Assembly: GCA_963971225.1 (NCBI GenBank)
Contig: OZ020267.1
Location: forward strand, 33,123,298-33,187,297
Source of the DNA: Melieria omissa
Lineage: Eukaryota; Arthropoda; Insecta; Diptera; Ulidiidae
Reading direction: 5' to 3'
Length of the DNA stretch: 64,000 nt
Within the stretch, counting starts at the first letter, position 1, and the number at the start of each line of letters is the position of its first letter. The translations under genes and the position numbers were made by a program. The notes beneath the pieces were generated by a model. It did no database searches. It was not told the DNA's origin and saw only the letters and a list, made by a program, of their open reading frames with translations. Positions 3,173 to 51,408 of the stretch are shown here, one piece after another.

Positions 3173-4440
3173 ACTATTCTGTGAAGTGATTCGTGTGTTC
3201 CTCAGAATCGAAACCCAATAACTTTGAAACCCGTGACAGCTCTATTGTGCTTTTTAAATTAATTAACTGTTGAAATTATAAAACAACAAATTTCAGAACC
3301 CAATAGAATAGCACAATAGAAAAGACTATGAGAATTCTAGAAATTCCGAGCCAATTAATACTTTAATACGAATATTAAAGAATACTTACAAAATATCAAA
3401 ATACCCAGTTAAAAATACTCCAAATGGTTACCACAGATTTTAGAAAATTACTCTCAAAAAGCAGGACTACCGTCATGTGCCTTTTTCAAAAGTGAAGTAT
3501 TTGGAATACAGGAAATGTAATTTGTGGGAAATTGAATATGAACAGAGTCATGAACATTCTGAGTTAATTTTGAATGCATAAGAAACATTCGAACCCAGAG
3601 GTCGTGGGTTCAACTCCCGCCGTGTGCACGGTCCCCGCACTTTTCCATCCAATTTTTCCTGTTCTCAAAAACCCTGCAACATATCCAAGTTCATTGATTC
3701 CTATTCCACTTTCAATTATTCCTATTCCACTTACTTCCACGCAATAGAACGCGCAATAATGCGCTGTGCGGCTGATAAATGCAAACAAATAAACAGCTAC
3801 GCAAAACAGGCGCACGAGCGACATCTGCAAGGGGAAGCGGACAACTGCGAAAACAGCGCGCACCAACCTGATCTAGCGAGGTCCCCAACCATTCTGCTGT
3901 AACCTCCTCATATCAGATGGCGCTACGAGCGGAGGCGACGTTCCTGAGCGGCGTTAGATGATTCCATCACTTAAGTTTTGAGTAATCGCTCAAATTTTCT
4001 GAGTTTATGTTTATGGTTAAGTTTATGTTCTGTGTCATGAGTAACTGGCCCATTAGGACTACCTGCGGCAGGCCAATCACCTACCCTGGCAGAACAACAC
4101 AACTGATTAATGTAACCAACACAAGGCTGTCTTGTGGAGGCCCTATGCTCCCGAGAGGAGTGAACAAGGAACGAACAAAAAAATAAGACTGTATTTAATT
4201 TTTCCTCATTGTGCTTTATACAAGGGGCGTGGCTATTCGAAATTTTGTCGTATGTACTATGGACAAAATCAATTCGAGCGCATTTGTGCCATACGACTAA
4301 TGCTTAACGAGTTAAAAGCCGAATATTTCTTAAAGTTTGCAAGTTATAAGTCAAATCAAATAGGAAACAAAAATATGTAATATCATTCAAATTAGGTCCA
4401 AAAATAATATTGGATTTTAAACTTCAGAATCGATTTTCTT
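3173..4440. other. Unclassified stretch with one B-box-like site
   Basis: No gene is recognised. At 3600-3640 there is a GGTTCAACTCC box like a pol III B box, but I find no A box at the expected distance, so a degraded SINE is only a possibility. Around 4040-4170 a GC-richer piece (GGAGGCCCTATGCTCCCGAG) looks like a retroelement 3' tail that I cannot name. Confidence 0.3.
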
Positions 4441-8927: not shown

Positions 8928-9533
8928 GGGTGTTTTTTTTAGAGGTATAGAACTTCGAATTGAAATAAAACACAAGAAAATCGTTTTAATGTCCATCAAT
9001 TTGGCTTTATTGGAAGGATAATTTTATGCGGTTAATGTTTAAATATGATTTCGGGCATGTGGCCGCCGCGGCTGGCTCGAATAAAGCCAATTCTACAGGT
9101 CCAATTTTTAAAGTTGATGGACAAAGCTCCAATTGCTGTGCACGGTAGCGAATCGATTCATTCGGGTCCTCTTCAACATTTTGCTCTACAGCGGCAATTG
9201 TTTCTTCGGTGCGCACTGTTCGACGTCTCTGCGGATGCGTATTATCACATAGAGTAAACGTAGTGCGAAAACGACCCATGGTTAACCGAATTAATTGCTC
9301 TGATGGACGATTATGTCGACCATAAAATGGACGGAGCTTGCGGTAAACTTCGCGAACTGAACCATTATTTTCGAAATAAACTTGCACGATTTGCAAGCGT
9401 TGTTCTTTTGTCAACCTGTTTATGATAAAATGGCAAACCAAACTGAACATAAATGACATTAGAGTTGCCAGATTTGACCACAAAATGCCAGTTTTATCTC
9501 TATTCGAAAAACAAACCTCTAAAAAAAACACCC
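8928..9533 (-). mobile_element. Deleted Tc1/mariner-like element with GGGTGTTTTTTTTAGAGG ends
   Basis: Inverted ends GGGTGTTTTTTTTAGAGGT are flanked by TA (8926-8927 and 9534-9535). The minus frame encodes a helix-turn-helix region: LTKEQRLQIVQVYFENNGSV, RPFYGRHNRPSEQ, then EENVxEDPNESIRYRAQQL. This N-terminal domain (DUF4817 type) is found on insect Tc1/mariner-related transposases. The frame then runs straight into the opposite terminus, so the whole catalytic domain is deleted and the 606-bp element can only move in trans. Confidence 0.8.
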
Positions 9534-9535
9534 TA

Positions 9536-9974
9536 TACTATATGACCCGGCGAACTTTGTCTCGCACAACATTTGTTTTTTTTTTGATAATGAATTGCGC
9601 GAGATGGCCAACTAAAGAAGAAGAGCTACTGATTAACGCAATTGAGGCCCACAAATCAGCAACGTTGCTGATAATAAAACTTGAGTCCGTTCATAAACCT
9701 GAACGGACTCAAGGCGAAATTGGCTCGTCCGTTTGAGTGTGATGCACTTACACACATACATCCACTTTCTTTATATGTATGTATATTTATGTATACATAT
9801 GTATATATGTACTTATATAGAAGAAGATGTAGCTGAAGCTGTCTATTTCTTATCAGAAAACAGCATGTTCGTTCGTTTTGCACGTTCGATGCCAAACAAT
9901 TGTATGTTCGAAAAAAATAAAATCAAAAACGGCCTGTCAGCCCTCAATCAAAGTCAGAAATCGCTGATATCAAA
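9536..9974. other. Spacer with ATGT/TATG microsatellite
   Basis: A run of TATG/TATA repeats at about 9760-9820 makes spurious open frames on both strands. It lies just upstream of the promoter of the secreted-protein gene at 10.0 kb. Confidence 0.6.
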
Positions 9975-10009
9975 TATAAAAATTGCTATAAAAACGATCT
10001 GAGTTCAGT
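9975..10009 (+). promoter_or_regulatory. TATA box and initiator of the 10.0-kb gene
   Basis: TATAAAAA at 9975-9982 is followed by TCAGTT at 10004-10009, the arthropod initiator. The initiator A (10006) lies 31 bases after the first T of the TATA box, the canonical spacing. A second TATAAAA at 9987 is too close to be the functional one. The start codon follows 50 bases later. Confidence 0.7.
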
Positions 10010-10055
10010 TGATCCCCAGTCGTGAAACGTCTTAGCTACTGAGCTGGTCTCAAAA

Positions 10056-10616
10056 ATGCTCGTTGCACAATTGTTCATTTTCCTGGCTTGTACAATCGCC
10101 TCATCGCACCAGTGGGTAATTATAAAATAAATATACGTTTGACATTTCAGAACTGGAAGCTCTTTAACCAATATTCAATTTAAAGTTTGGAGGGCCTCGA
10201 GATCTCATTGAATTGCAGGGAGACGCCTGGGATGAGTCAATGCTACTTTTAAATCGTTCGAGTTACGCACATTTTAAGGATCCCAAGTGGTGGGAGATGC
10301 CAGAGTGGAAAAATGTGTAATATTCGCTATATATCAATGTTTACTATGCAATGCAGTGCAAGCTAATGTATTTATTTTTTATACTCTCAACAGCTTAGTC
10401 AAAATGCACACAATCAAACGTCGAGTTACAATAGGTACGATGTTCGAATACAAAGGGTTTTATCACACAAAGTATAGGGGTCATTTGTTCTGTAATATAA
10501 ACATCCACGTCCAGCCGTGGGAGTGGAAGAACAGGATGATGGATTTCGGCTTTAGATGCACAGAACCGAAGGATAGGGTTTATTTCCATTATAATCATTC
10601 GATGCTTTTTGCCTGA
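10056..10616 (+). CDS. Small secreted protein, three exons, unrecognised
   Basis: Coding exons are 10056-10115, 10219-10316 and 10394-10616, total 381 nt, 126 residues. Exon 1 encodes a 20-residue signal peptide (MLVAQLFIFLACTIASS, then HQW). Intron 1 (103 bp) has GTAATT...GCAG in phase 0; intron 2 (77 bp) has GTAATA...CAG in phase 2. Both join open frames exactly. The mature part is rich in Trp, Tyr and His, with a WDESML stretch, KDPKWWEMPEW, and two cysteines (C86 in GHLFCNI, C108 in GFRCTEP) that could pair. It has a TATA/initiator promoter 50 bp upstream and AATAAA 80 bp downstream. I recognise no family. The design (short, secreted, tiny introns, single disulphide) resembles fly seminal-fluid or immune-type peptides, but that is only analogy. 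Exon structure is well supported; function is unknown. Confidence 0.75.
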
Positions 10617-10695
10617 GAAGGAGAAGAATATAAAATGTAAAACATTTTACTGAATTGCAAAAGTTCTGCTCATTCGTAGAATTCAATTAAATTTG

Positions 10696-10701
10696 AATAA
10701 A
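10696..10701 (+). terminator. Poly(A) signal AATAAA of the 10.0-kb gene
   Basis: The AATAAA lies 80 bases after the stop codon in an AT-rich 3' UTR, consistent with a compact fly gene. Confidence 0.6.
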
Positions 10702-11178
10702 GTTAAATAACATTTGTTATTAAAGTTGAATAACATTTGTTTTTCACTTCATCTTGTTTTTGTGTATTACTTCATATAAAACAGTTACAATAAAACCAAA
10801 TACATATATTGGCTTAGCTCACAGTAACTCTGGAATGAGGAATGCTACGATATTAAGTACTTCAGATGGCGCTTATTGTGCAAATTAAAGTTTACGACTT
10901 GGTTCTTCGGAAGCCAATTTTATTCCGTTTTTCTCGTGCTCATCATACCAAGCATCACGCCAAGCATTGCACACCGCATTGCGGTTTGCGGTAAACTGCA
11001 ACGACTATTTATAATTGGTGAACCGATTCACCAAGCCGCATTCCGGTTTAAAGCTTTTACTGCGACAACCATCTCTCACTTGTGGGGCGTGATCAGCACA
11101 TTCTTTAGCGCAGCAGCGTTGTTGTTGTCTCGATGAACGTTATCGGTGAAGATTTTACGCTGCGTCCGAGAGCAAATG
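10702..11178. other. Spacer, no gene seen
   Basis: There are short frames only. Nothing shows splice-supported coding or terminal repeats. Confidence 0.4.
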
Positions 11179-11412
11179 ATGCAGCGCATATGCATTGCAT
11201 TTGTTGTAGTTGTACTGATTGGCGCGTTATCGGGTCACAAGAGAGGCTTCAGAGGAGGAGTTACACATGTTATCTTAACTTGCATAGAGGCGGCTCTCAT
11301 AGGGTATTGGATAGCAAAACCTGGTCAACATTATATTCTTTATATATGTTTCGCTTCTAAACGACTGAAAAGAGTGTTGGTGGCTAAGAACAATAATAAG
11401 AATTATTGTTAA
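11179..11412 (+). CDS. Candidate small membrane or secreted ORF (weak)
   Basis: From the internal Met pair at 11179 the frame gives MMQRICIAFVVVVLIGALSG, a plausible signal peptide, then a basic stretch (HKRGFRGG), a second hydrophobic segment (VILTCIEAALIGYWIA) and a Lys/Arg-rich end. It stops at 11412, with AATAAA about 12 bp later. There is no intron evidence, no family match and no clear promoter. The right side is Helitron-like repeat, so it could be a chance frame. Confidence 0.2.
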   Translation: MQRICIAFVVVVLIGALSGHKRGFRGGVTHVILTCIEAALIGYWIAKPGQHYILYICFASKRLKRVLVAKNNNKNYC

Positions 11413-11419
11413 GATGGAA

Positions 11420-12150
11420 ATATGCAAATAAAAATGAATGTCTGTTTGTTTGTTGGTTTGTTGATCACACGACACTAAAACTCACAGTCTGGAAGACTGA
11501 TTGAGCTGAATCTGGCACGGAATGTTCGTCTTGGCTAAGTCTCGCTAAACCATATAGTGCGAATATGACCCGACAGGGGGGCGTGGCACCTCCAGTACAA
11601 CCTACATTTTCAATATGGAATGAAACTTGGTACAGGGCCCTCGTTTAGGTGTATCGTTTTACTTGTAACATTGTATGAGAGTTGGATAAGGGGCGTGGCA
11701 TTTTTGAAGCGATCCAAATGTGTCAAATAGCTTTGGAACTACCGGTCACATATCAATGAATTTTGGCACAAATTAACGTGTCCTTCGACCAGGGAAATGG
11801 GTTAGGTATTGCACGAAGGGGCATGGCACCGCGAATACAACCCAAATGTTTAATATGGAATAGCTTTGGAGTTATAAGTCGAATAGCATTGAAATTTTGT
11901 ATTCCGTCGTCCCATAGATGTGGCATTCTACTAGAAACATTTGATAAGCGTTGGACAAGAATCGTACATCAACGAAACTGGGTCGCATCCTTCGACTAGA
12001 AGAATGGGTTGGGCATCGTCAATACAATGCCCAAACCGCTAAAGAACAAACATGAAATTGGAACTGTAAATACCTTTAAGAAAATAAACTTACACTAAGA
12101 CGGGATTTTTTTCAAACTCGGGGTCTATGGGCGCAAAGCCGCGACGCCCT
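11420..12150 (+). mobile_element. Helitron-like non-autonomous element
   Basis: The 3' end has a hairpin-capable GGGCGCAAAGCCGCGACGCC followed by TGCTAG and T, matching the Helitron pattern of stem-loop plus CTRR before T. The body has repeated gggggcgtggca and gaaacttggtac-type phrases, and a TTTGTTTGTTGGTTTGTT piece near the left. Just before the hairpin lies the phrase CTAAGACGGGATTTTTTTC, shared with the elements at 15.1, 26.3 and 57.1 kb. No Rep/helicase frame is present. The left boundary is approximate. Confidence 0.55.
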
Positions 12151-12229
12151 GCTAGTACTTTATATATAGTAATGTCCGATTCACATACACATTCGATGCA
12201 ATTAAAATATTTGGGCACATTTAGATTTA

Positions 12230-12480
12230 TTTTACAGAGCGGACATACACAGTAAAAGGATTTTTTAAAATTTAACCTGTAAAGGAGTCAAAAATGGGTT
12301 AAGAGTTTATATGAAGAAAAATGATTTTTACGCCTTTTGAGTTTAAACTTGGTAAAAGTACTTCAGAACAGTAATAATTCGACAGGCATTTTTTAGTTTT
12401 CCAAATCGATCTCAAAAACGGTCAACAATGGGTTCAAGTTTGTATGGAGAAACGAAAGTTGTTTACTGAAATAAATAAAT
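12230..12480 (+). repeat. Degenerate Helitron-associated tandem repeat, 1-2 units
   Basis: This contains the recurring unit phrases ATGGGTTAAGAGTTTATATG, a GAGTTTAAACTTGGTAAAAG stretch and TTCAAGTTTGTATGGAGAAA. The same unit forms longer arrays at 15.1-15.7, 26.3-28.0, 49.6-50.0 and 56.8-57.1 kb. Confidence 0.55.
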
Positions 12481-13863
12481 CTCAATTTTAATTTCGTTTC
12501 AAAAATAAAAACATGATTTAAAGCTGTATTTATAAAGTAGCACTTCAGTATAAAAGTAAAACAAAAACACTTAATTGTCGTCATCTGCATTTGAGTCAAG
12601 TCTTCTTAATATTTCAAGTTCTTCGTAATAATTCAAAGTTTGTGTAGGCGATTAAATTTGATCAGAAATTTTTTGGAGCAATTAGCGTGTCAAGGCGCAC
12701 TATACTAAAGGGTTGATGAAACTAAAAGACAAGCAAAAAGCCAGTACTATAAATCGAATAAATTACATTTGGAAAATACTCTCATGTTAGCCACATCAAG
12801 GTTGCCAAAGTTGAGTCTATATTCTTCATCTCTACATTGCTCATACTAAATCTTATTTCGATTGAATACCACTATTTAATCGAAAGTTATAGTGACTACC
12901 AGGTATCTGAGAAACGCTCAGACTGATATCCTTAAGTCCTCAATTTTGGAAACCTTGTGCTAATTGAACTATATTGTATAACAACTCAGTAAAACCCCTC
13001 AGTAAAGGGGTCTTAGATGTAAAAAGTGTAAAAAGTACACAATTTTTGAATCGCACCTCACCACACCTCAATGTTGAGCTTGAATCATCTCAAGGAAACA
13101 CGGAAAATGACTGCAGCGCAATGTGGAGAAATAAGTAAAACTAAATTGTTTTTGAAAGTTTAAAATATGAAACAGAAGTCATGTTTAAAGGGGTCTTAAT
13201 TTTTTCGGTACAAAAACGCCAAAACTACTATGCTGGTAAATGAATTTATTACATATTATTACATAATAATTTTTTTTTCCGAAACACTTTTTAATTAATT
13301 TTGTAACTTTAGTCACTGACACACAGAAGAAGAACACTGCGAGTTCACATCAATGCGTATGCCCAACTTTGAACGTGTACCGTTATAAAAAGCGGGACTT
13401 TAAAAAACATAACTGTTGCCTAATGACGCACGTATACATATATACTTTGTCCACGCGATCAGTGATCAAATTTGCAATAAAAAAAGCCAATTTTCAAAAA
13501 TCGATTTTTGACCAGCTTTTCCTATCAAATATTCCTACGTGCAGCTCAGAGATTTGTTTAAAACTAAAAGCTATTCAATTTTCAATTAACTCTATTCATT
13601 TCAGCATTTGCCCTAAACAACATTAACCTCTGCAACCAATGTTTTTTCCTGGTATACACACACATACATACTCGTATGTATGAACATTGATAACATTAGC
13701 GCAGTAATGCAACTAATTTTAATCTGCTCACCAGCGTATGTCAGAGTTTTTATATATAACAACAGATTAGCATGTAAACTAATTGATTTCACATGCGGCG
13801 AACGCTATAAGCTTTCGATTATTAGAATTCAATCATTGAATGGTGATCCCGCAACAGATTAAT
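12481..13863. other. AT-rich spacer, no gene seen
   Basis: I see no coding or terminal-repeat structure. At 13771-13802 the phrase around TTGATTTCACATGCGGCGAACG is similar to one at 14488-14520 on the other side of the MITE, so the MITE sits between two diverged direct copies of this stretch. Confidence 0.45.
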
Positions 13864-13867
13864 ATGT

Positions 13868-14484
13868 CGCACACGCACTACAAAAGTGACACAACTCAAA
13901 ATTTTTCATTTTCGGGTTTATGTGTTAATGCATAAATCTGCACAATGCATAAATCTACCAATCAGCAAAAGCTGTTACAAAAATACAGTTAGGTCTCTTT
14001 TCATGTCAGAAGTTTGATGCTATTTGATTGCTGCAGCTCAGTGCAAAAGAGTCCCAACTCAAATTGTGTCACTTTTGATGAAATAAATTTTTGTTTAAGT
14101 TAATTTTAAGCCAAATTCTAACAATTTTTGTATATATTTTTAATTTCTAAAATTAATTATGAATTTTCAAAATTTTCTTTCAACTTTTTAACTGTCATTT
14201 ATAATTATTAAATTTAGAAAAAGTGCAAAGCATAACTTGAAATAGTTCCGTAATTATTGAATTAAAATATCATCAAAACAGTCACAACTCAAAATTTTGG
14301 ATTTTCTAATTTAAAATAAAAAAAAATTCTTGGAACTTATCAAAAAGCATAACCTGTAAGGATTTTCTACTGAACGGTCTATATGTGATTTAAAAATAAA
14401 TGTTTATTTAGCTCAAGAACAGTTTTTTGCGTTTCCTGAAAAATCACAAATTTTGAGTTGTGTCACTTTTGTTGTGCGTGTGCG
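13868..14484. mobile_element. 617-bp TIR element with 4-bp TSD ATGT (copy 1)
   Basis: Long inverted ends start CGCACACGCACTACAAAAGT and continue through GACACAACTCAAAATTTT. ATGT flanks both sides (13864-13867 and 14485-14488). A second copy in opposite orientation lies at 59554-60173 with ATAT on both sides, so a 4-bp duplication is supported twice. The interior has no long frame. A 4-bp TSD excludes mariner, typical hAT and Harbinger; Chapaev, Sola and related superfamilies use 4 bp, but I cannot choose among them. Confidence 0.8.
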
Positions 14485-14913
14485 ATGTGAACTGATTGAT
14501 TCCACATGCCACGAACGTGATAAATTAAATCGCTAAATATTAGCTTTCGATTGGTTGATAGACTCCTGTTGTTTGTTTAAAATGCTTATGTCGGCCACTC
14601 ATACAGTCAAAAGTAGTTTTCATGAATTTGATGGTTTCTCATGAATCATCCGAGTCACCAATTAGATAGATAGGTGTTTATTAGAAGAAGAAAATCATTA
14701 CGCAACTTATGTTATCGCACAATTTACAAAAATATAGTGTTGACCTTGGCCTTAATTCAAGAACATCATCTTAATTTTACTCTGACAGTTACACTTTAAA
14801 TTTAGATTAGCAGAAGCGATTCCGAAGGAAAAATACTTCTACTGGAAAGAGTCACCAATAAGTCTTCCTGGCTTGTGCAATCGTCATCACTGCCGCTGTG
14901 CGAAATGACATCG

Positions 14914-15796
14914 TCTATGTACATGTGTATATATGTACAATACATATAATTGTTTGTGCTGACTGATTGCCTGACTCATTGCCTGAGTGACTGCCCGAGT
15001 CGCTGAAGCTACAAACGTGCAATTTTAATTGTAAGTCCACTTTTGAAAATGAACCTCCGTTTAGAGTGGGGATTTTTTTTTTTAAATTCGGGGCCTGAAG
15101 GGGCAAAATATGGGTTAAAATCTTGGTAAAAATGCTTCAAATCAAAAATGATTTCACGCGTAATTTTAAATTTTTCCAAAAATCTAAATTTAACTAGAAC
15201 AACAAAGAGGTTCAGGTTCGTATACAAGAAGACTATGAAAAAACATGATCCAATAGACCTATTGACTTCAAAATTGGTGAAAACAATTGAAAGAAAAAGT
15301 TAGTAGAAATGTGTTTTTAACATTTCTTTTTTTAAATCAAAATTTGATGGGGTTAACGTTGGTAAAAATTATCGGATCACCGATACGCTGAGAGAACTTA
15401 AAACTCCAAATGAGAAATAATTTGAAACAAGTTTTTCACTTTTTCAAAATCACAATCTGACGAGAACACAACGCTTTGTTAACGCTTTGTGTGAGGAAAC
15501 ATGATTTAATGGGCCCATTGACTTCATATATGGTGAAAGCTTGAAAGATGAAATCAGAAATAATTAGAGAAGTAATAATAATTAATAATTGATGGGGTCA
15601 ACAAATGGTTAGGAAAAACTTGATGCGAAATAATTCAACGCATGTGTTTTAGTGTTCGAAGCTCAACATGAAATCAGATGAGACAAAAAATGCGTTCGAA
15701 GTTATGTAAAGAAACACTTTATGATTGTATCTAATGATCATAAAGTGAGTAAAGAGTATTTCAATGTAATTATAAAATTCCTGCGGGTCCTGCTAA
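14914..15796 (+). mobile_element. Helitron-like element with central degenerate tandem repeats
   Basis: The left part starts TCTATGTACATG and holds TGACTGATTGCCTGACTCAT, a head style common in insect Helitrons. The conserved phrase GTGGGGATTTTTTTTTTT then AAATTCGGGG follows. The centre (15095-15720) is a degenerate array of about 110-135 bp units with GGGTTAA, ACTTCAAA-GGTGAAA and TTTGA-GGGGT phrases. The right end reads CTGCGGGTCCTGCTAA then T, matching a Helitron CTRR terminus. No replicase gene is present. Confidence 0.55.
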
Positions 15797-16065: not shown

Positions 16066-16378
16066 GCAGCCGCCGTGGCTCAGTTGGTTAGTGCGCGGTC
16101 CCGCGAGTCGGATGCAGAGCGACGCAAGTTCGAATACTGCATGTAGCAACACCTAAAAAAATAACGGGAAACTGTCCTCTCAGCTGGAAATGGCAAACCT
16201 CGTGGAGTAAAAATTGCCTATGAAAAAGCTCCCAACCTGCCGTTCGGAACCGGCATAAAACTGTAGGTCCCTTCCACCCGCGTACAAAATTCACACGCAC
16301 AACACGGGTGGTTGCGGGAAGCCAGGCCTTAGTCTCGCGTAAGCGGGCTGTCGTGCCTATCAATTATTATTATTATTA
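16066..16378 (+). mobile_element. tRNA-derived SINE with ATT tail (copy 1)
   Basis: The head GCCGCCGTGGCTCAGTTGG carries an A box, and AAGTTCGAATAC carries a B box at tRNA spacing. The body holds GAAACTGTCCTCTCAGC, TGGCAAACCTC, GCCGTTCGGA and ACTGTAGGTCCC. The tail is (ATT)n, and mariner copy A has inserted into that tail. A second copy is at 44.0 kb. Confidence 0.8.
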
Positions 16379-17122
16379 TCAGGTGTACAACTTTGCTTCC
16401 GCCGTTTTTTTTTCCAAAATTAAAAGCTTTATTGCGAAAAAGTGCTTACAGATGTATTATTCAAAGTATTGTCCGTCGCTAGCGACAACTTTCTCCCATC
16501 TTTCCGGCAATTTTCGGATCCTGGCTCGAAAAAAGGAGTCCTCTTTTGACGCTATCCATGAAGCAATCCATTTTTCCAATTCTTCGAAGGATTGAAAATG
16601 TTGATCTGCCAGGCCGTATGCCATCGAACGGAATAGGTGGAAGTCAGAAGGGGCGACATCTGGGGAATACGGCGGGTGGGGCAAGACTTCTCATTTCAGC
16701 GTTTCCAGGTACTTTTTGACCACTTTTGCGACGTGAGGCCGAGCATTGTCGTGTTGGAGGATGACTTTGTCATGTCGAAATCACCATTTTTAAAACGTTG
16801 AAACCACTCCCGACACGTTCTTTCACTCAGAGCAGCATCACCGTAAGTTTCTGAGAGCATTCGATGCGCTTCAGCTGCATTTTTTTTCGAATTGTAACAG
16901 AAAAGTAAAACTTCCCGCAAATGGCGAGAATTGGGCACATAAACGGACATTTTCGAGCGTGAATAATACGAAAACAAGAACAACTGTCACTGAAACGGCG
17001 ATGACAATTCGTTAGGCACTGTCCACACTCACTTTAAAGGCATTGCCATCTATGTATTTCAATCAGCCTCAGCCGGTACAGCCACCTATCGGAAAACGGC
17101 GGAAGCAAAGTTGTACACCTGA
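16379..17122 (-). mobile_element. Deletion-derivative mariner, copy A
   Basis: Inverted ends TCAGGTGTACAACTTTGCTT (about 30 bp) lie between TA dinucleotides (16377-16378, 17123-17124). The minus strand encodes a Mos1-like mariner N-terminus (MSVYVPNSRHLREVLLFCYN through WFQRFKNGDF) joined directly to the C-terminal part (YSPDVAPSDFHLF, KLPERWEKVVASDGQYFE). The middle, with the first catalytic Asp, is deleted and the frame is broken at the junction. It is 744 bp, against about 1.3 kb for an intact element. Three sister copies lie within 8 kb. Confidence 0.9.
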
Positions 17123-17124
17123 TA

Positions 17125-18563
17125 AATTGAAAGAAAACGTCATATTAAAAAGTTGTCAAATTTGTCTGCTTCTTATTCCTTTACTATGTCAAGATATACC
17201 TTAAAAAAAACGTGTATACTTCTCTTCTTTAAACTTAAATATTCAGTTGTTTAATTTCGTATTTTTCCTAAAACTTCAAACTATTCTCAAGATCAACAAT
17301 AAATGTATTCGTGCAGACGTCCATAAAGTAGCATGTAGCATGGCATATGGCAACAAAATAGCGAAAGGGTTAAGTAGCAGAGTTTTGTGAATACAAAACT
17401 ACTTCAACGAATACAAAATTACTTCGCTTTTGTATGAGTTGGTTCAGGGCGTATTGGGCACACAATCCTCTTGAACCCCTTAACCACATAAACACTTTTA
17501 CGAAAATAAGTTTGTACTTACTTATGCATATGCAGCAAGAATGCCAACGCATTTGCTTCTTGTATCAAAATTGTTGTATTGTTGAATTAAAGTCTATTTG
17601 CAGCTCAAAGTTGAAGACCATTTAGGTCGTATCCCAATTTTGTCTATGCGTGTGTGTGTGTCCGAATTTACGCGAATCAATCGAATTGGCACTCAACTTA
17701 AATGTTTTGCACCAATGTTTTCCTAGAAAAGGCCCAAAGGATAATTTTTTATTTTTGTAAAAAATTTTGATTTCAACACAAAAACGAAACATGACTTTTA
17801 TATGGAAATTTTTGCCGATTGCCATCATGAAGGTGGTCTCTTTTGTGCTTACGCACTCTTGTGTAAAAAATGCCCTGAATTTCACAAAAGCAACGCAAAG
17901 ATCCAAGTGAAAATAAAAAGGGCCACTTTTTGTCCAAATGGTCCAAACATGGGGCAGAACTTACGAATTGAACAATAAACGAAACTGAAGAGAGAAAGCA
18001 ACACGCCAACAAATCAATAATTACAAACGAGTGGGCGCTGCATCATACAAACCGGGAAATCAAAGCAACAAAGACCAACGCGGCTGCCTATGATTTGCGC
18101 AGGTAATCGGTTCACCTTCAAACATCCAACTGGCGATGAGAGGCGAACGCAAGGCGCGCTGCAGGGAGATGCTGTAACCATGCGCGTCGATTATTCACTG
18201 CGCTGGAAGTAAACGGGTGAACGATTAGCTGACACGCAACAATGAATTGCATAATTTTTGAACATACAACAACAACAACAGTACAGTAATGTGGGCAAAG
18301 CAATGCATTCGTCGTAAATAGTTAGCTGGTATTTTCCCGCGCGGCGATGACTCACGTCAAGCGCGGCTGTTGTTTGGCTGTTCCGCTCACGGTTGCCACT
18401 CGACCAACATTTTGTTAATTAGATATTTCTGGAAAAGTAACGAAAACGTAGAAAAGACACAACCAAGTATCGGTCGTTTATTGCTGTAGCCGATCAAAAA
18501 TGTCCAAGCAAAACAAAAACAAAAGCCATAACGATACAATGAACAAATTTCATATCAATTATG
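17125..18563. other. Spacer, no gene seen
   Basis: No splice-supported coding and no terminal repeat are visible. Simple CAA and TG runs occur. Confidence 0.45.
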
Positions 18564-19390: not shown

Positions 19391-19798
19391 GAAACGAAAC
19401 GAAAGACGAAACAGAGGTGAAATAATCAACAATATTCTGTTATGGATGATCTTGCGATGCTTTTGTTACAACAACAACGTATAAATGTTTCTTTCTTTCT
19501 GTTTCTATGACTCGAAGTTCGCTCGATTTGTACGTTTTGTCTTGAATGATTTCAGTTAGAATTTTGCGTGGTTGTGTGAAGCAACGAATTGCAGCAGCAG
19601 TCGAATGGTATGTATTAATAAATTTATGTAATTATGTTTATATAATTATTTGTTAATTAATGAATTTTTTTATTTATTGCAGGCGAAGTCAGGATGTTGA
19701 ACTGTGTCAGTTTCGACAGAAGTGTGTCAACAAGTCGAAGTTCATCTTTACATGCACCAATACTTTTTTTATTCGCCATTATTTTTTGCTATTTTAAT
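19391..19798. other. Spacer with an intron-like segment
   Basis: Plus-strand text around 19575-19760 shows a possible exon pair split by an intron: donor GTATGT at 19609 and acceptor TTTATTGCAG ending 19681. Joined in frame it gives CVKQRIAAAVEW then RSQDVELCQF. It is too short to identify and may be a transposon scrap. Confidence 0.2.
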
Positions 19799-19799
19799 A

Positions 19800-20526
19800 T
19801 CAGGTGTACAACTTTGCTTCCGCCGTTTTCCGATAGGTGGCTGTACCGGCTGAGGCTGGTTGAAATACATAGATGGTAATGCCTTTAAAGTGAGTGTGGA
19901 CAGTGCCTAACGAATTGTCATCGCCGTTTCAGTGACAGTTGTTCTTGTTTTCGTATTATTCACGCTCGAAAATGTCCGTTTATGTGCCCAATTCTCGCCA
20001 TTTGCGGGAAGTTTTACTTTTCTGTTACAATTCGAAAAAAAATGCAGCTGAAGCGCATCGAATGCTCTCAGAAACTTACGGTGATGCTGCTCTGAGTGAA
20101 AGAACGTGTCGGGAGTGGTTTCAACGTTTTAAAAATGGTGATTTCGTGGTGAGTGAAAATGGTGAGTCATCCTCTAACACGACAATGCTCGGCCTCACGT
20201 CGCAAAAGTGGTCAAAAAGTACCTGGAAACGCTGAAATGGGAAGTCTTGCCCCACCCGCCGTATTCCCCAGATGTCGCCCCTTCTGACTTCCTCCTATTC
20301 CGTTCGATGGCACACGGCCTGGCAGATCAACATTTTCAATCCTTCGAAGAATTGGAAAAATGGATTGCTTCATGGATAGCGTCAAAAGAGGACTCCTTTT
20401 TTCGAGCCGGGATCCGAAAATTGCCGGAAAGATGGGAGAAAGTTGTCGCTAGCGACGGACAATACTTTTTCGCAATAAAGCTTTTAATTTTGGAAAAAAA
20501 CGGCGGAAGCAAAGTTGCACACCTGA
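19800..20526 (+). mobile_element. Deletion-derivative mariner, copy B
   Basis: Same family and ends as copy A but in plus orientation, with TA at 19798-19799 and 20527-20528. The N-terminal frame begins at 19972 (MSVYVPNSRH) and runs to FKNGDF, then a different junction reads VVSENGE before the frame-broken HDN region. The C-terminal half is at 20208-20460. Length 727 bp. The junction sequence differs from copies A, C and D. Confidence 0.9.
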
Positions 20527-20528
20527 TA

Positions 20529-21310
20529 ATATTTTTGCAATAAAATTAATATTTAATACAAATATCAACTGGTTAGAAAACTAATCCAGAATAAACTAGT
20601 TCGCAAACTAGTCGCTTTGCAACTGGTTTACTTCGGACTAACCTTGGACTAGTTGCAAATGGATGCAGACGGGGACAATTGACCCGCGCCTAGGACACCG
20701 CCATGTTAAAAGGTTTGGAGTTTGCTCCAAGGAAACGAGTCGATTCTGAGGTCATATATGACTGTCAAGCGACCAGTTGAAAAACTAGACTCGGATCAGT
20801 CCGATTTCCCGCAGGGTGGCCAGCAGCGCATCAAGACTGCTATGCGTGTCGCGCGCTCTGGGGTTTTCTCAAGGTGCAGCGTATGCCGAACGGAGCCGGT
20901 CGGTCCGCGCACATACGCGACAAGGGTTAGCGCGTCACTCGACCGACCTTCCTTTGCAGCAACACTACTAAATACAACAATAACAGGTCGCTTTGAACAC
21001 AACAACCTACCGCAATGTTGGCGCTTATAAGCAAACCACTCATCGCTGTGGCAATTTTTTCCGGCGCCAATAGTAGCTGCAGATTTTTGGGCTATCTTTA
21101 CTTATTTACATTTTTATTGACTCGTTTGTATGAACATATATACATACATATGTGTTTTGCTGTCTTGTGTTGTTCGTGTGTCACATTTGTGCAGTTGTTT
21201 GTGAATTTTGTGCTCTTTACTTTGCGCCACAGTTTCGAATTATGGTTTTACCACCATCCGACGTCGTCTGGTTTGAAGTTTGAAGTGATTTGCTCTGCAG
21301 AAATTGTGAG
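20529..21310. other. Spacer with repeated CTAGTT motifs
   Basis: 20570-20690 is dense in AACTGGTT and ACTAGTT motifs resembling those at 18770-18845, so the two patches may be ends of one old element carrying the LTR and mariner inserts. 20700-21010 is GC-richer. No gene is recognised. Confidence 0.35.
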
Positions 21311-21449: not shown

Positions 21450-21692
21450 GTGAGACCGAAAGGAGTGCTTTGAAATATTTGCAACTTAATTTTTGGTTTT
21501 GTGTTGTGCAATGTGCAAAGTGAATGAAAATGCGTTGGTGCGAAAAGGCATTGAATCTATCGGAACTCGAATAAATATTTGGTGTGATATTGCAAGTGTA
21601 GATGCTAAAAACATTTTACAAAACAACAAACAAAAACAAATATTAAGCATACTGACGAGAGAAAGTATTTGAATACATAAATAGTTATTGTA

Positions 21693-22429
21693 TCAGGTGT
21701 ACAACTTTGCTTCCGTTTTTTTCCAAAATTAAAAGCTTTATTGCGAAAAAGTGCTTACAGATGTATTATTCAAAGTATTGTCCGTCGCTAGCGACAACTT
21801 TCTCCCATCTTTCCGGCAATTTTCGGATCCCGGCTCGAAAAAAGGAGTCCTCTTTTGACGCTATCCATGAAGCAATCCATTTTTCCAATTCTTCGAAGGA
21901 TTGAAAATGTTGATCTGCCAGGCCGTGTGCCATCGAACGGAATAGGTGGAAGTCAGAAGGGGTGACATCTGGGGAATACGGCGGGTGGGGCAAGACTTCC
22001 CATTTCAGCGTTTCCAGGTACTTTCTGACCACTTTTGCGACGTGAGGCTGAGCATTGTCGTGTTGGAGGATGACTTAGTCATTCGAAATCACCATTTTTA
22101 AAACGTTGAAACCACTCCCGACACGTTCTTTCACTCAGAGCAGCATTACCGTAAGTTTCTGAGAGCATTCGATGCGCTTCAGCTGCATTTTTTTCGAATT
22201 GTAACAGAAAAGTAAAACTTCCCGCAAATGGCGAGAATTGGGCACATAAACGGACATTTTCGAGCGTGAATAATACGAAAACAAGAACAACTGTCACTGA
22301 AACGGCGATGACAATTCGTTAGGCACTGTCCACACTCACTTTAAAGGCATTACCATCTATGTATTTCAACCAGTCTCAGCCGGTACAGCCACCCATCGGA
22401 AAACGGCGGAAGCAATGTTGTACACCTGA
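21693..22429 (-). mobile_element. Deletion-derivative mariner, copy C
   Basis: Same ends and gene order as copy A; TA at 21691-21692 and 22430-22431; length 737 bp. The N-terminal frame is broken upstream (ATG region shifted) and the deletion junction after GGTGATTTC is slightly different from copy A. C-terminal residues through DGQYFE are intact at 21766-22032. Confidence 0.9.
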
Positions 22430-22431
22430 TA

Positions 22432-23476: not shown

Positions 23477-23478
23477 TA

Positions 23479-24219
23479 TCAGGTGTACAACTTTGCTTCC
23501 GCCGTTTTTTTCCGAAATTAAAAGCTTTATTGCGAAAAAGTGCTTACAGATGTATTACTCAAAGTATTGTCCGTCGCTAGCGACAACTTTCTCCCATCTT
23601 TCCGGCAATTTTCGGATCCTGGCTCGAAAAAAGGAGTCCTCTTTTGACGCTATCCATGAAGCAATCAATTTTTCCAATTCTTCGAAGGATTGAAAATGTT
23701 GATCTGCCAGGCCGTGTGCCATCGAACGGAATAGGTGGAAGTCAGAAGGGGCGACATCTGGGGAATACGGCGGGTGGGGCAAGACTTCCCATTTCAGCGT
23801 TTCCAGGTACTTTTTGACCACTTTTGCGACGTAAGGCCGAGCATTGTCGTGTTGAAGGATGACTTTGTCATGTCGCTCTTCCATTTTTAAAACGTTGAAA
23901 CCACTCCCGACACGTTCTTTCACTCAGAGCAGCATCACCGTAAGTTTCTGAGAGCATTCGATGCGCTTCAGCTGCATTTTTTTTCGAATTGTAACAGAAA
24001 AGTAAAACTTCCCGCAAATGGCGAGAATTGGGCACATAAACGGACATTTTCGAGCGTGAATAATACGAAAACAAGAACAACTGTCACTGAAACGGCGATG
24101 ACAATTCGTTAGGCACTGTCCACACTCACTTTAAAGGCATTACCATCTATGTATTTCAACCAGCCTCAGCCGGTACAGCCACCTATCGGAAAACGGCGGA
24201 AGCAAAGTTGTACACCTGA
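23479..24219 (-). mobile_element. Deletion-derivative mariner, copy D
   Basis: Same family, TA at 23477-23478 and 24220-24221, 741 bp. Its junction retains more on the 3' side (EERHDKVILQHDNARPYVAK), so the second catalytic Asp segment reads in frame with the C-terminal half (minus frame 23555-23923). The N-terminal frame (23868-24080) stops at the junction. The first catalytic Asp is missing, so it is inactive. Confidence 0.9.
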
Positions 24220-24601
24220 TAAAAAATAAAAAAATATAAATTTTTGACCAAATGGCCAGTACATCGTTTTGAACAAAAAAATGTCCATCTGATAAAAAAC
24301 ACATTGACTACGTACTACCACAAAAAATATATTTGTGAAGCTTCTGCGAAATTCAATCGATCCATGCAAAGGAGTAATCCGTCCACCCAGTTTGTGAAAA
24401 GTGCTTTCGAGAAAAATGCTTGTTCCAAGGTGCTGGAACTAAACTTGTTATAATGTTTTTTGATTATTAAAACAACTGGACAACAAATTGTTTCTAATTT
24501 CTTTTTATTCAAAGTATAGTTTAAGTCAAAAAACAAATTCAATTTTTCTAAAATCCTAGAGTAGTGTTAATTCTCTCATAAAGCATATAAGCAAACCTTA
24601 A

Positions 24602-39032: not shown

Positions 39033-41948
39033 ATGTCATACAGCAGACAGCACGTGCGCACTAGGAGCGCACTCACAGTCACTCTTCTACTGCTCGCGAC
39101 AGCAGCTTTGGTGGCCGGCGAGGGTCTGCGGCTGCCGGATCAACAACCCGTGCAGCAGCAACAGCAACAACAACAACAACAACCCATTCAAAATGTGCAG
39201 CAAAGTTACACGGCACAGCCACAGCCACAGCTGCGGCTGCAACAGACGGCGGCCAACTTCGGCGAGGAGCGCGGTGGCCGCTCGTCGCTGCTCAGTTTGC
39301 TGGGATTGCAACACGACAACGATCCCTATTTGGCGCGCTCGAACCAGAACTGCCTCAGCGGCGATCTGTCCGAGTGCTTCAAGACGCAAGCGCTCAGCAG
39401 CTTCGATGAAATCTTCTACAGGGATCAATATCGGTGAGTGCGAAGCCAAGAATTGGAGCATTCGGAGGATTCGTTTATAACGAACTTCTGCCTATAACGA
39501 ACCAATTTCATAAGTACGCGCTTTATTTTTTCGCCTATTACAAACGCGTTTAAAGCCAACTTTCGGTTAAAACGAACCATTTTGACCAGTCCCTCGAAGT
39601 TCGCTTTAACCCTTTCGGAACTACAGGGATAATACGTCCCAGCAAGTTTTTAATGCCCCTCAAAAAATGTATTCAAATCTAACGACCCACGCAAAATATT
39701 TTTTCGATTTCGGTTTTCCCGCATAAAACGATGATTTCAGAGTATGTGAGCATTCAGTATAATTTTCTAACCCCAACTTAGCGAATATTTCTATTGAGAT
39801 TATTTTGGAGTTCAAAATTAAACTCCGTGCCGAAAGGGTTAAGCGAAAAATTCTGTTTATAAATAGATTTTGTTTTTGTGAAAGTGATTTCAAGAATCAA
39901 GTTTTCAATGCTTTTTGTTTTTAACAGTTTAACGGACTTTGCGCGCATTGTGCGTTTGCCAGAGAATCAGCAACGTTCGCTGCTGCAAGAACCCTTTGAG
40001 TATTCGCAGGAGCCGCGCAATGAGGACACCGATTGGGATCAGATGCTCAAGTACGCGCTGAGACGTGCTGAAAGGTGAGTTGAAACATTTCAAGTCCAGT
40101 TACGTTCAGTACAAAGTCTTGAACAAACTATCTGCAGTAGAAATCGGATGTATATAACAGGCGCGGATCCAGAAAAATATTTCGGGGGGGGGGGGGTTTT
40201 AAAAAGTAATTCTTTAATATTTATAAAATTCTTTTTAATTTGTATGTAGTTTTATAGTCGATCCAAATATTTCGGGTGGGTTTCGATCCCCAAAACACCC
40301 CCCTGGATCCGCCACTGGTATATAACCACATCTTTCGACAACTACACTTTGAAAAGTGTGTTAAGTAAGTTCAGCTTGAATCATGCAAAACTTTCCTCGA
40401 AGAATTGCCAAACGACAGAACCTCAAGCAGTGGTGGATTCAGGGGGTGGGTTGGGGGTTGAAACCCTCCCAAATATTAGCGTCGACTTTAAAACTAAATA
40501 CAAGTTAAAAGGTATAAACATAAACATTTGTGAATATTAAAGAATTACTTTTTGAAAGCATTCAAAATATTTTTCTGAATCCGCCCCTGAACACAAGGTC
40601 CGCAGTCCAGTTGGCGAAGATGGTTTTAGTCGCTAAAAATCCGGAAAAACCGATACACAGAATCCGCATAGCAATTTGTGGCTTCTTTTCAGATTTCATG
40701 AACAATGTCTTACGCCCAATTTTAATTGTTTTAAAAACATTCTACCTACAAAAGAATACATTTTGAATTTTTTAAAGATATATATATATTTCTTCAAATC
40801 AAACTCGCAAAACCTCTACTAGAGCAAAACATTACATTTTGGAAGAATCGAGTGTTCGTTTCCTCTGCGTGTACTCGCTCACCTTACCGCCTCGTTTTCC
40901 CAACAAATACATATATACATATAGTATGTACGAGTACATACGTCCAAGTAACCCTTTGCCATGAATGTCCTTTGCCGTTTCAAGCTGCGTTTGCCGCGTG
41001 TGTACATCATTAAGCTGCCAAACATTGGCTGAAGCGTAAATGTTGCTGCTTTCAGTATAAAAGCTCTTGATTTTCACTCAAAGACATAAACTGACAGCAA
41101 AGTTTGTCGGCCCTTAGGCGCCGCCTCAATGCACTTCACTGCCAATTGGGTGGACGATGAAATTAATTAATTACATTGTCACGTAATTTGCACACACAAG
41201 TTGACCCTTTGCCTTTTGCAGATTTGTCAAGTCGACCGCTTTGGAAGTGGACGTGCCCGAGGAGCTGACCGAAGCCGGCCGCTACGAGGCGCGTTTCATT
41301 GGCAATGACATTGACAGCGAATTGGACGTCATCGAGGACAAACATGCGCCCGTATTCAGTAAGTTGTCGCACTTTTAATTGCTGCGCTCAGCTTTGCAAT
41401 TAATTTGCCAAATTTGTTCTTTCCGATTTATCTCGACAGAACGCAAGAAGTTGAAGAAGATGATCATTCCGCTGTTGCTAGTGTTGAAAATCTTCAAGCT
41501 GAAGCTGCTACTCTTCCTGCCTTTCATACTGGGCATTGTTGGCCTCAAGAAGATACTCGGTCTGGCCGCGATTGTGCTGCCCGGCCTCTTTGCCTACTTT
41601 AAGCTGTGCCGTCCGGCCGGCGCGCCCGGCTACGGCGGCGGCGGCGCCTTCTCTGGTCTCTTCGGCAGCAAGAACACCTTCCCGGAGTACTCGCCGCAGG
41701 GTGTGGGTGCCGCCACCTACTATCACCATCATGATCACTTCGAGGGCACCGGCGGACCCACCGGACCCCACTACCACCAGGAGCCGTCCTTCTCGAAGCC
41801 CTACACCGATTACTACAGCAAGAACTATCAGACTGGTGGCGGCGGCGTCGGCAATTCGGTGAGCTTTGGCGATGCGCACGAAGCGGCTTATTCGGGCTAC
41901 TATGGCCGCAACACCGGCAAGGACATTCCGACCGTGCAGAAGAGTTAG
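39033..41948 (+). CDS. Osiris family protein (DUF1676), gene A
   Basis: Four coding exons: 39033-39433, 39928-40074, 41222-41358 and 41440-41948 (1194 nt, 397 aa). Donors are GTGAGT, GTGAGT and GTAAGT; phases 2, 2 and 1 all close. Residues 1-30 contain a signal peptide (SALTVTLLLLATAALVAGEG), 41-50 are ten glutamines, and C107 and C115 form the C-x7-C pair. A basic KRKKLKK leads into the long Leu/Ile-rich Osiris hydrophobic segment at 236-284 (MIIPLLLVLKIFKL to AAIVLPGLFAYFKL). The tail is Gly/Tyr/His-rich, and AHEAAYSGY near 373 corresponds to the family AQ-x-LAY motif. Osiris proteins are secretory-pathway proteins of cuticle-forming epithelia; exact biochemistry is unknown. Start: ATG 39033 follows an acceptor; the in-frame ATG at 38994 would be intronic if that acceptor is used. 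Orthology to a numbered Osi gene was not assigned. Confidence 0.9.
39610..39838. mobile_element. piggyBac-like MITE in gene A intron, 229 bp
   Basis: The inverted ends CCCTTTCGG.AC lie between TTAA at 39606-39609 and 39839-39842. It lies in the second intron of gene A (39434-39927) and contains no splice-site-disrupting sequence that I can see. Confidence 0.8.
40158..40317. mobile_element. hAT-like MITE in gene A intron, 160 bp (copy 2)
   Basis: The ends CAGGCGCGGATCCAG and CTGGATCCGCCACTG are flanked by identical 8-bp repeats GTATATAA (40150-40157, 40318-40325), which fixes the boundaries and the hAT-type duplication. Confidence 0.88.
40428..40589. mobile_element. hAT-like MITE in gene A intron, 162 bp (copy 3, inverted)
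   Basis: The ends CAGTGGTGGATTCAG and CTGAATCCGCCCCTG match the same family, with the interior in reverse orientation to copies 1 and 2. The flanks ACCTCAAG and AACACAAG match at 6 of 8 bases. Confidence 0.75.
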
Positions 41949-45964: not shown

Positions 45965-46820
45965 CTTTCGGGTTAACAGAGGCCCTTGGAGTGTTCGAGA
46001 GAAGGGTAAACAAAGGCCCCTGGAATGTTCGAGAGAAGGGTAAACAGAGACTCTTGGAGTGTTCGGGAGAAGGGTAAACAGAGGCCCTTGGAGTGTTCGA
46101 GAGAAGGGTAAACAGAGACCCTTGGAGTGTTTGAGAGAAGGGTAAACAGAGGCCCTTACAGTGCTCGAGGGAAGGGTAAACAGAGGCCCTCGGGGTGTTC
46201 GAGAGAAGGGTAAACAGAGATCCTTGGAGTGTTCGAGAGAAGAGTAAGCAGGCACTGTTGGAGTGTTTGAGAGAAGTGTAAAGAGAGGCCCTTGGAGTGT
46301 TCGGGAGAAGGGTAAACATAGACTCTTGGAGTGTTCGAGAGAAGAGTAAACAGAGACCCTTGGAGTGTTTGAGAGAAGGGTAAACAGAGGCCCTTACAGT
46401 GCTCGAGGGAAGGGTAAACAGAGGCCCTCGGGGTGTTCGAGAGAAGGGTAAACAGAGATCCTTGGAGTGTTCGAGAGAAGAGTAAGCAGGCACTGTTGGA
46501 GTGTTTGAGAGAAGGGTAAACAGAGGCCCTTGGAGTGTTTGAGAGAAGGGTAAACAGAGACCCTTGGAGTGTTCGAGAGAAGAGTAAACAGAGACCCTTG
46601 GAGTGTTCGAGAGAAGGGTAAACAGAGGCCCTTGGAGTGTTCGAGAGAAGTGTAAACAGAGTCCTTTGAAGTGTTCGAGAGAAGGGTAAACAGAGGCCTT
46701 TGGAGTGTTCGAGAGAATAGTAAACAGAGACCCTTGGAGTGTTCGAGAGAAGGGTAAACAAAGGCCCTTGGAGTGTGCGAAAGAAGGGTAAACAGAGACC
46801 CTTGGAGTGTTTGAGAGAAA
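45965..46820. repeat. 34-bp minisatellite, about 25 units, with higher-order repeat
   Basis: The unit contains CCCTTGGAGTGTTCGAGAGA followed by AGGGTAAACAGAG. Unit starts at 46081, 46115 and 46149 fix the period at 34. A distinctive variant block (CCCTTACAGTGCTCGAGGG) recurs 238 bp later (7 units), showing amplification of a multi-unit block. The minus strand has no stop codon in the unit, so it yields long SLEHSKGLCLPFSRTLQG-type frames that are artefacts of the period. Confidence 0.95.
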
Positions 46821-46905
46821 AGAGCTTCGCAGATCTTCGGCCCTATTGGTATTGATGATAACTATTGAAAACGAACCAAGAACGAGCTGTATGAGATGTT
46901 TTTAC

Positions 46906-50100: not shown

Positions 50101-51408
50101 GAACAAACACGCAGACTTGTGTGCAAAGACAACGAGCGCTGCTAATATACAATATGACTATACAGTAGCGCACACAGGGGGGTTTCGGGGTTCAAACTTC
50201 ACCAAAAAAGAAAAAATTGCCGCTACAAAATATGGTTTCGAATGTTAATTGGCTCAAAAGTTGTACGCAACCCCCGTCTCCGTCCCCCCCTTATGAAATC
50301 CTTTGTGCGCTACTGTAACTATATCTTCATAACTTAATAACTGTAACTATATATATCATCTGGTTTAGGCTAAAGTTCCATAACAATAAATATGCCACAG
50401 AAAGCTACTCAGCTTCTCGTTCTGATCTTCAGTTACGAATGCTTGGATTTTCGTAAAACAGTTCACATTGATTTTTTTGACAGATTCCCATAATGAACCG
50501 CCATCAGCTGGAGGAGGGCTTCCTGCGCAAACTCAACACCAAATGCAGCCAGCGAGACAATCACTCGTGCATGATGTTGAAACTGATTGTTTACATGAAT
50601 CGAATATTTAAAAAGTCCTCCATTGAGATAAACGAAAACGTCAAAGTCACACAGAACAGGTAACTCGTCCACTTCTCACCATACCCACAGCATTTCGTTG
50701 CCCCAGAAAACGAATATCGTATGTTGCATTGAATTCAACAGCACATACGACTATCGTTTTCTCAGTTAAAAACTTGCTTCTCTTTGTGGTTGGGCCGTTT
50801 CAAGAGCATTCGTGCGCGTTGTCCTTTGCAGAGACATTGACACCATAGCCGACGATCCGGACGATGATATGTTGCTGGCGCGTTCAATTAACTCGGACGA
50901 CGAGACACTCGGTCTGCTGGTGGCCGGCAAAATCTGGAAGTTTGTACGCTCACGAACGCTGCGCTATAAATTTTCCAATAATGCCGACTTTGTTGTGACC
51001 ACCGAGCCGCAGGGCAACCTCAACTTTGGCGTGTCCGTGAGTCCTGTCGAGGCGCTGGAGGAGGGCCGCGGCAAAATGAAGAACATTGGGCCGCTGCTGA
51101 TGCTGATGGCGGCCAAGGCGGGCATGGTGGGTGCCCTGCTGCTCAAGGGCCTCTTCTTGCTGGCGGGCAAGGCGCTGATTGTGTCGAAGATTGCGCTGCT
51201 GTTGTCGGTCATAATTGCACTGAAGAAGCTGCTGTCGCAGAAGAAGCACATCGTCGAGATACCGCATCACGACTCGTACAGCTCGGGCTGGGCACGTGCG
51301 CTGGACGGCTTCATCGAGGGCATGGCCGAGGTGCCGGCGCACATTGTGGCGCAGGAGGCGCAGGAAATGGCCTACGCAGCGCAGCTGCCGGCGCACAAAA
51401 GCACTTAG
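48664..51408 (+). CDS. Osiris family protein (DUF1676), gene B
   Basis: Three coding exons: 48664-48753, 50484-50659 and 50832-51408 (843 nt, 280 aa). Introns use GTAATT...GACAG (phase 0) and GTAACT...TGCAG (phase 2). Exon 1 is the signal peptide (MRALISCGVIAFVAILAVRA). Residues 51 and 59 form the C-x7-C pair (KCSQRDNHSC). The Osiris hydrophobic segment spans about 176-219 (GPLLMLMAAKAGMVGALLLK to SKIALLLSVIIALKKLL). After HHDSYSSGW the tail carries AQEMAY at 265-270, the family AQ-x-LAY motif. Gene B is complete and lies downstream of gene A in the same orientation. Intron 1 (1.7 kb) contains a 126-bp tandem duplication and a Helitron-type repeat. The number within the Osi series is not assigned. 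Confidence 0.93.
49281..49530. repeat. 126-bp tandem duplication in gene B intron 1
   Basis: Two near-identical units, starting at ACTTCAATGTGATCC (49285) and ACTTCAATGCGATCA (49411), share TTTCATAGCAGAAGAGATCA and AACTGGTTCTTGTTCTTCTT. The duplication is responsible for the repetitive minus frame there. Confidence 0.9.
49565..50040 (+). repeat. Helitron-associated degenerate tandem repeats in gene B intron
   Basis: About three diverged units carry GTTTGTATGGAGAAACATGA, TTGACTTCAAACTCAGTGAA and TTGACTTCATACTCGG phrases, as in the arrays at 15, 27 and 57 kb. A 27-base poly-T tract follows (about 50068-50094). Confidence 0.65.

Follow-up and report, generated by a model that had tools for sequence, protein, structure and literature searches.

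A compact, probably secreted three-exon gene of the fly Melieria omissa, its likely descent from insect cystatins and its divergent second copy

Positions 9975-10701 of a 64,000-nucleotide stretch of the Melieria omissa genome (contig OZ020267.1, positions 33,123,298 to 33,187,297; the window) had been proposed, from a sequence-only reading, to hold a compact and complete gene for a secreted protein of no recognised family. This raises the questions of whether such a gene exists, where its exons begin and end, from which family its protein descends, and what its evolution says about its role.

Gene model, second copy and splice sites

The signals described by the sequence-only reading were largely found (Table 1). 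The TATA box TATAAAAA and the TCAGTT initiator are present, with A+1 at 10007, 32 bases from the first T of TATAAAAA. Exon 1 with its phase 0 end, the GT donors at 10116 and 10317, the phase 2 intron 2 ending at 10393, the stop codon and the AATAAA signal are also in place, as are the two cysteines of the mature part (Cys97 and Cys119). By inspection, the N-terminus of the protein is hydrophobic. The donors fit 6/9 and 4/9 positions of the consensus, indicating modest splice strength. When gene models of at most two introns were sought in 300 Markov-generated sequences of the same length, 126 codons or more were reached in 1.3% of them; this search demanded a C or T before the acceptor AG, so that a TTTAAAG acceptor was invisible to it. 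The rarity of long models in these controls means that structure alone favours a gene, without proving one.

Table 1 Positions of the gene features, protein landmarks and duplicated block in the window.
Feature	Position	Strand	Remarks
TATA box TATAAAAA	9975-9982	+	also conserved in the C3 paralogue
Initiator TCAGTT, A+1 at 10007	10005-10010	+	also conserved in the C3 paralogue
Exon 1, coding, ATG at 10056, signal-peptide-like MLVAQLFIFLACTIASSHQW	10056-10115	+	phase 0 end
Intron 1, corrected, 70 nt	10116-10185	+	AG and phase 0 in both copies; branch-point-like TTAAC
Exon 2, corrected	10186-10316	+	N-terminal Gly segment and presumed helix of a cystatin-like domain
Gly22-Gly23-Pro24 (FGGP; LGKP in the paralogue), counterpart of the N-terminal Gly segment of cystatins	10189-10197	+	hhalign
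N-glycosylation sequon NRS (NRT in the paralogue)	10252-10260	+	by inspection
Intron 2, 77 nt, phase 2	10317-10393	+	branch-point-like CTAAT at -31; acceptor CAACAG
Exon 3, coding, with stop (10614-10616)	10394-10616	+	presumed beta-hairpins of a cystatin-like domain
RVTIG at the QxVxG loop position, degenerate (RIIAG in the paralogue)	10422-10436	+	profile alignments
Cys97, first cysteine of C-x7-P-W-x12-C	10491-10493	+	motif comparison
Pro105-Trp106, counterpart of the cystatin PW loop	10515-10520	+	cystatin spacing from Cys97 in both copies
Cys119, last cysteine	10557-10559	+	kept in both copies
Poly(A) signal AATAAA	10696-10701	+	sequence inspection
Block collinear with C3:86264500-86274499 (minus strand)	9536-15508		genome DNA alignments

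The genome (490 Mb in 164 contigs, with the window on contig C1) was searched with the 126-aa protein, which returned the window and one further locus, on the minus strand of contig C3 near 86.271 Mb. The same two loci were returned by the C3 protein in its 132-aa version and by the DNA of 9975-10750. As these searches score the best candidates only, there are at least two copies. A profile of the pair, applied to the window and to the 200 kb around the C3 copy, detected no further copy under E 0.3. A multi-copy mobile element as carrier of the gene was rejected, because the DNA search gave two loci only, itself a lower bound.

The surrounding DNA is also shared. The collinear block consists of five pieces (9536-9759, 9789-11279, 11275-11718, 13388-13867 and 14485-15508) with insertions between them. 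Counting substitutions only, the four gene-free pieces differ at 13/223, 26/420, 26/461 and 66/1004 sites, about 6% each. Given this collinearity and this even divergence, we read the block as a segment of about 6 kb that was duplicated once between chromosomes. A known structured RNA as the cause of conservation was ruled out, Rfam giving no match in 9500-11800. A bacterial promoter scan found nothing; its bacterial model is not applicable to a fly.

Several other features lie in or next to the block. Directly after the stop of the C3 copy there is a MITE-like, 131-bp inverted repeat with arms 94% alike (L006 reverse complement, 3618-3748). At the place corresponding to 11275-11279, the C3 copy carries an insertion of about 1 kb flanked on both sides by those five bases. 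An open frame of 78 aa with a signal-peptide-like start (MMQRICIAFVVVVLIGALSG...) spans 11176-11412 on the plus strand, and its C3 counterpart has, by eye, an in-frame TAG. Positions 14865-14888 resemble exon 1 of the gene (E 0.015) and are possibly a decayed third copy; this degenerate stretch was not accepted as an extra exon 1. The left edge of the block is adjoined by a transposon-like, DUF4817 helix-turn-helix frame (9007-9531, minus strand).

Elsewhere, the window contains several transposon remnants and four copies, 92-98% alike and one of them inverted, of a repeat of about 750 bp (16377-17126, 19780-20531, 21691-22431 and 23477-24223). A tandem array at 45970-46822, with offsets in multiples of 34 bases, has long open stretches in two minus-strand frames. 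Osiris (DUF1676) frames lie at 41379-41948 and 50812-51408 on the plus strand, the second matching Osiris 3 of many flies; the Osiris-3 piece of the window is 87% identical to that of Anastrepha ludens, 84% to Eurosta and 83% to Lucilia.

By comparison of the two loci, it is the second copy that shows the gene to be coding. The window and C3 proteins share 59 of 131 aligned residues. The paralogue keeps the intron phases, the stop and the signal exon. Its frame is free of internal stops, and its exons have changed in length by net multiples of 3 only (3, 6 and 15). In exon 3, the coding frame is free of stops in both copies, against 4 to 7 stops in the other two frames. Identical residues number 27, 23 and 21 of 72 in the three frames, and with identity so similar, the difference between frames shows more in stops and similarity. 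When the same number of substitutions was placed at random in exons 2 and 3 only, without realignment (5000 simulations), the sequences stayed free of stops in 0.3%, and the observed BLOSUM score of 214 compared with a simulated maximum of 164; the 41 identical residues observed were tied by the best simulation, the mean being 28.9. The proposal of a compact, complete gene is thus backed by a paralogue that preserves its frame, and a probably secreted three-exon gene at 9975-10701 is supported by these sequence comparisons.

The second copy also bears on the end of intron 1. The sequence-only reading had placed the acceptor at 10218 (TTGCAG/GGA), which is probably wrong: the paralogue has TTGCAT there and lacks the AG. 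At TTTAAAG/TTT (10185/10186), the AG is kept and joins exon 1 in phase 0 in both copies, giving an intron 1 of 70 nt in the window copy and 74 nt in the paralogue. A branch-point-like TTAAC lies about 20 bases upstream of this acceptor in both. The 33 added bases (10186-10218) are open and of equal length in the two copies, and the strong divergence between them begins near 10186, ahead of 10219. Against the correction counts the A, rather than C or T, that precedes the AG at 10185 and makes the acceptor weaker than the one at 10218. On the missing AG, the open frame in phase from TTTAAAG and the onset of divergence, intron 1 most likely ends at 10185 and the coding exons are 10056-10115, 10186-10316 and 10394-10616. 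The corrected proteins have 137 aa (window) and 143 aa (C3), and the 126-aa length first assigned to the product was probably too short.

Relation to cystatins

The earlier statement that the protein matches no known family held in part. At E<=10, none of the 126-, 137- and 143-aa proteins matched a Pfam family, and neither a database of 5.8 billion proteins, searched with the 10218-acceptor protein, nor a single-sequence PDB search with the 126-aa protein gave a match. Flies are represented in the protein database, from which an Osiris-3 query returned 194 proteins, including Anastrepha. The statement failed in profile and pairwise comparisons with cystatins.

The sequence that we take to be Drosophila Cys was recognised by Pfam as PF00031 at 1e-10, with a score of 42.2 against a cut-off of 22.2. 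Aligned with it, the C3 protein scored 54, compared with a shuffle mean of 22 (z 8.8), and 0/2000 shuffles scored as high; for the window protein, p was 0.0085. With hhalign, the pair matched three vertebrate sequences and three plant repeats over 87 collinear columns (E 0.012, probability 3.6), a score without insect sequence that was reached in 1/300 column shuffles. With an alignment that included Drosophila Cys, the match extended over 90 columns at E 1.9e-4 and probability 47, and 0/300 column shuffles reached it. The match thus rose when an insect sequence was added, as ancestry predicts.

The motif C-x7-P-W-x(8-14)-C occurs in both copies, in Drosophila Cys and in two vertebrate sequences tried. 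Shuffling the two proteins 200000 times produced it in 53 and 14 cases; it occurs in 0/120 Osiris proteins and in 6/2005 six-frame reading frames, which include the exon-3 frames of both genes themselves. A PDB profile search with the corrected pair returned two entries, factor V (E 0.32) and multicystatin (E 0.73). The multicystatin match is collinear in its three repeats and places QVVAG over the RVTIG/RIIAG columns. The residues shared by the window and C3 copies include cystatin landmarks, and the N-terminal Gly segment comes from exon 2 in its corrected form.

Other results point the other way, beginning with hhalign probabilities of only 47 with Drosophila Cys and 3.6 without it. The multicystatin match stands at E 0.73, and at E 33 for its best domain, and a PDB search with the C3 protein gave Menin chains and TRAF1, no cystatin. 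An HMM built from six cystatins, none from an insect, placed two unrelated frames ahead of the exon-3 frame of C3, which came only third at E 1.8; the window gene was absent from its matches at E<=5. Local shuffle tests were mixed, with both extremes coming from chicken cystatin (p 0.42 for the window protein, 0.004 for the C3 protein), and global scores against cystatins gave p above 0.05 in 5/8. A structure model of exon 3 alone had three strands and a pLDDT of 52.8; the best match of its fold search had an E value of 0.87, and among the matches listed (50 of 343) the proteins were unrelated and none was a cystatin.

A fast-evolving, lineage-specific secreted protein unrelated to cystatins, with the motif arising by convergence or chance, would fit the empty Pfam and protein-database searches, the single-sequence PDB searches without a cystatin, and an insect-free HMM that singles out neither gene. 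It would also gain from the fact that cystatin was picked after inspection; for the same reason, the shuffle and E figures are somewhat overstated, and correction for many families would weaken the E values. We nevertheless find this unlikely in view of the shuffle controls, the landmarks kept in both copies and the strengthening of the match by the insect sequence. Descent of the gene from insect cystatins is, on these comparisons, what we regard as likely.

Cystatin hallmarks are QxVxG together with a glycine in the N-terminal part and a Pro-Trp in the C-terminal part (PMC2553070). In both copies the N-terminal Gly, the Pro-Trp loop and the C-terminal cysteine pair are found, and similarity scores lie above those of shuffled controls. 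Only the Gly of the QxVxG loop is retained in both, and the proteins fall under the Pfam gathering cut-off for PF00031. With QxVxG missing and the cut-off not reached, we describe it as derived from a cystatin and do not count it among the inhibitory cystatins.

Divergence limited to the mature exons

Noncoding DNA near the gene differs between the copies at 43/799 sites, against 147/336 in exons 2 and 3. The 43/799 count was made with the 10218 acceptor and takes in nine bases that are now exon 2; left out of it are the gapped stretches, namely the last 24 bases before 10219 (13/24 differ, now exon 2), 10657-10859 and 10961-11019, the latter two being unalignable through insertions, including the C3 131-bp inverted repeat. 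By part, 11/246 sites differ upstream, 5/79 in intron 1, 8/76 in intron 2, 4/40 after the stop, and 3/101 and 12/257 farther on. In the signal exon (exon 1), 2/57 aligned bases differ, plus one 3-base gap. Only 41/112 residues are identical in exons 2 and 3. The divergence is abrupt at the exon borders: the 77-bp intron 2 between these two exons differs by about 10%, slightly more than the other noncoding DNA (8/76 vs 35/723, P 0.055).

A C3 pseudogene, with the window copy alone functional, might be suspected from the absence of the AG at 10218 and from the inverted repeat just past the stop. This appears very improbable, since the corrected acceptor leaves the C3 frame open across 143 codons, and a copy dead since the duplication should differ by about 6%, not 44%.

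Substitution rates in the corrected model (window vs C3) were dS 0.88 and dN 0.61, with dN/dS 0.70 (bootstrap 0.41-1.14); dN does not exceed dS between the copies. Ordinary strong positive selection after duplication, with fast amino-acid change and neither old lineages nor homogenisation, would explain why the divergence is confined to the mature exons while signal exon and introns are spared, and why noncoding divergence is uniform across the block, as from one duplication. However, it predicts silent sites at about 6%, whereas dS is 0.88. Third codon positions differ most (0.49 vs 0.41 and 0.41), and the 41 codons with identical residues carry 11 silent changes in 23.0 silent sites (P 2.5e-8 at 6% per site). 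Such age at silent positions would not be expected if selection had acted on amino acids alone since the duplication, and we consider this explanation improbable.

Exon-focused raised mutation or error-prone repair, altering all codon positions after duplication, would agree with substitution being up at all three positions in the mature exons only. For Hessian-fly salivary genes, the authors mention that Y-family polymerases, rather than positive selection, might be responsible (PMC2955719). In the present pair, however, amino-acid similarity and frame are preserved. We know of no mechanism that halts at exon-intron borders 77 bp apart, and think this explanation highly unlikely.

Taken from the one gene pair on which the evolutionary argument rests, the copies look like two constrained coding lineages about ten times older than the surrounding DNA. 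Nearly the same surroundings with a very different mature protein form a pattern usually linked to evolutionary conflict. With moderate confidence, we favour a secreted, cystatin-descended protein whose block was duplicated and whose old coding lineages have been kept apart amid homogenised noncoding DNA. The block of about 6 kb was duplicated between contigs C1 and C3, probably at a time corresponding to roughly 5-6% noncoding divergence. The likeliest cause of the pattern would be diversifying selection that maintains separate, old coding lineages, with recombination or gene conversion homogenising the introns and flanks around them. A role in conflict, through seminal fluid, immunity or feeding secretions, would fit.

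MHC-type loci have homogenised introns and old exon lineages. The present gene resembles them in its old, coding-limited divergence within young noncoding DNA, here seen in two copies and in an unrelated protein. The two lineages could accordingly be ancient alleles of a single insect locus under long-term balancing selection, with recombination removing divergence at distances of a few tens of bases and the second allele happening to be copied in a recent duplication between chromosomes: an MHC-like pattern in a secreted fly protein derived from a cystatin. We treat this as a doubtful, though conceivable, variant.

Known systems, putative function and significance

The reading of a cystatin-derived protein with old coding lineages can be set against several known systems. 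Insect cystatins such as Drosophila Cys (PF00031; MEROPS I25) resemble it in the small domain, probably secreted in our gene, the N-terminal Gly, C-x7-P-W-x-C and one cysteine pair, with a collinear profile match across 90 columns; a single pair in the mature part is also what the Drosophila Cys sequence has. Unlike them, the gene has lost QxVxG, lies under Pfam detection and has mature exons that are hyper-divergent between two copies. The CRES group comprises cystatin-related, reproductive proteins without QxVxG and with a degenerate first loop. By that description, the fly gene is like CRES in its cystatin-like landmarks and degenerate first loop, but CRES is vertebrate.

In bracovirus cystatins, genes of parasitoid-wasp viruses under directional selection, the protein is likewise of the cystatin type and diversifies at or near the wedge; the one that was modelled keeps QxVxG and two disulfides, unlike the present protein (PMC2553070). 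The small secreted salivary gland proteins (SSSGPs) of the Hessian fly have a conserved promoter, UTR, signal exon and intron, and a super-diversified mature coding region; positive selection with concerted homogenisation was proposed for these salivary genes (PMC2955719). Our gene pair is similar in its conserved noncoding DNA and signal exon and its diversified mature region. SSSGPs form clustered groups and show dN/dS above 1 in moderately diverged pairs (PMC2955719), whereas here two dispersed copies lie on different contigs, with dN/dS 0.70, a high dS and a cystatin-like domain. The gene itself was not named in literature titles or abstract openings among the matches listed, which is no proof of its absence from print.

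The 137-aa protein is predicted to be a secreted single domain with one expected disulfide, Cys97-Cys119. Its fold would be a helix packed on a beta-sheet, and its binding edge would correspond to the cystatin wedge, formed by the N-terminal Gly, the first loop and the PW loop. The change from QxVxG to R-V-T-I-G suggests that a cysteine-protease target may have been changed or lost. The putative function is that of a binding protein that would be secreted, perhaps in glycosylated form, and act where there is conflict. Of the 40 genes with the highest expression in the accessory gland of the sepsid S. punctum, two encode cystatins that carry secretion signals (PMC9768217). This makes seminal fluid one candidate setting, alongside immunity and feeding secretions.

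Genes of this kind can escape annotation: there was no Pfam or database match, and the likely splice site came to light only through the paralogue. If our reading is true, the two loci would offer a clean test of how the divergence of exons can come to be about ten times that of the intron separating them, and a cystatin-derived protein would join the very fast-diverging secreted proteins of flies.
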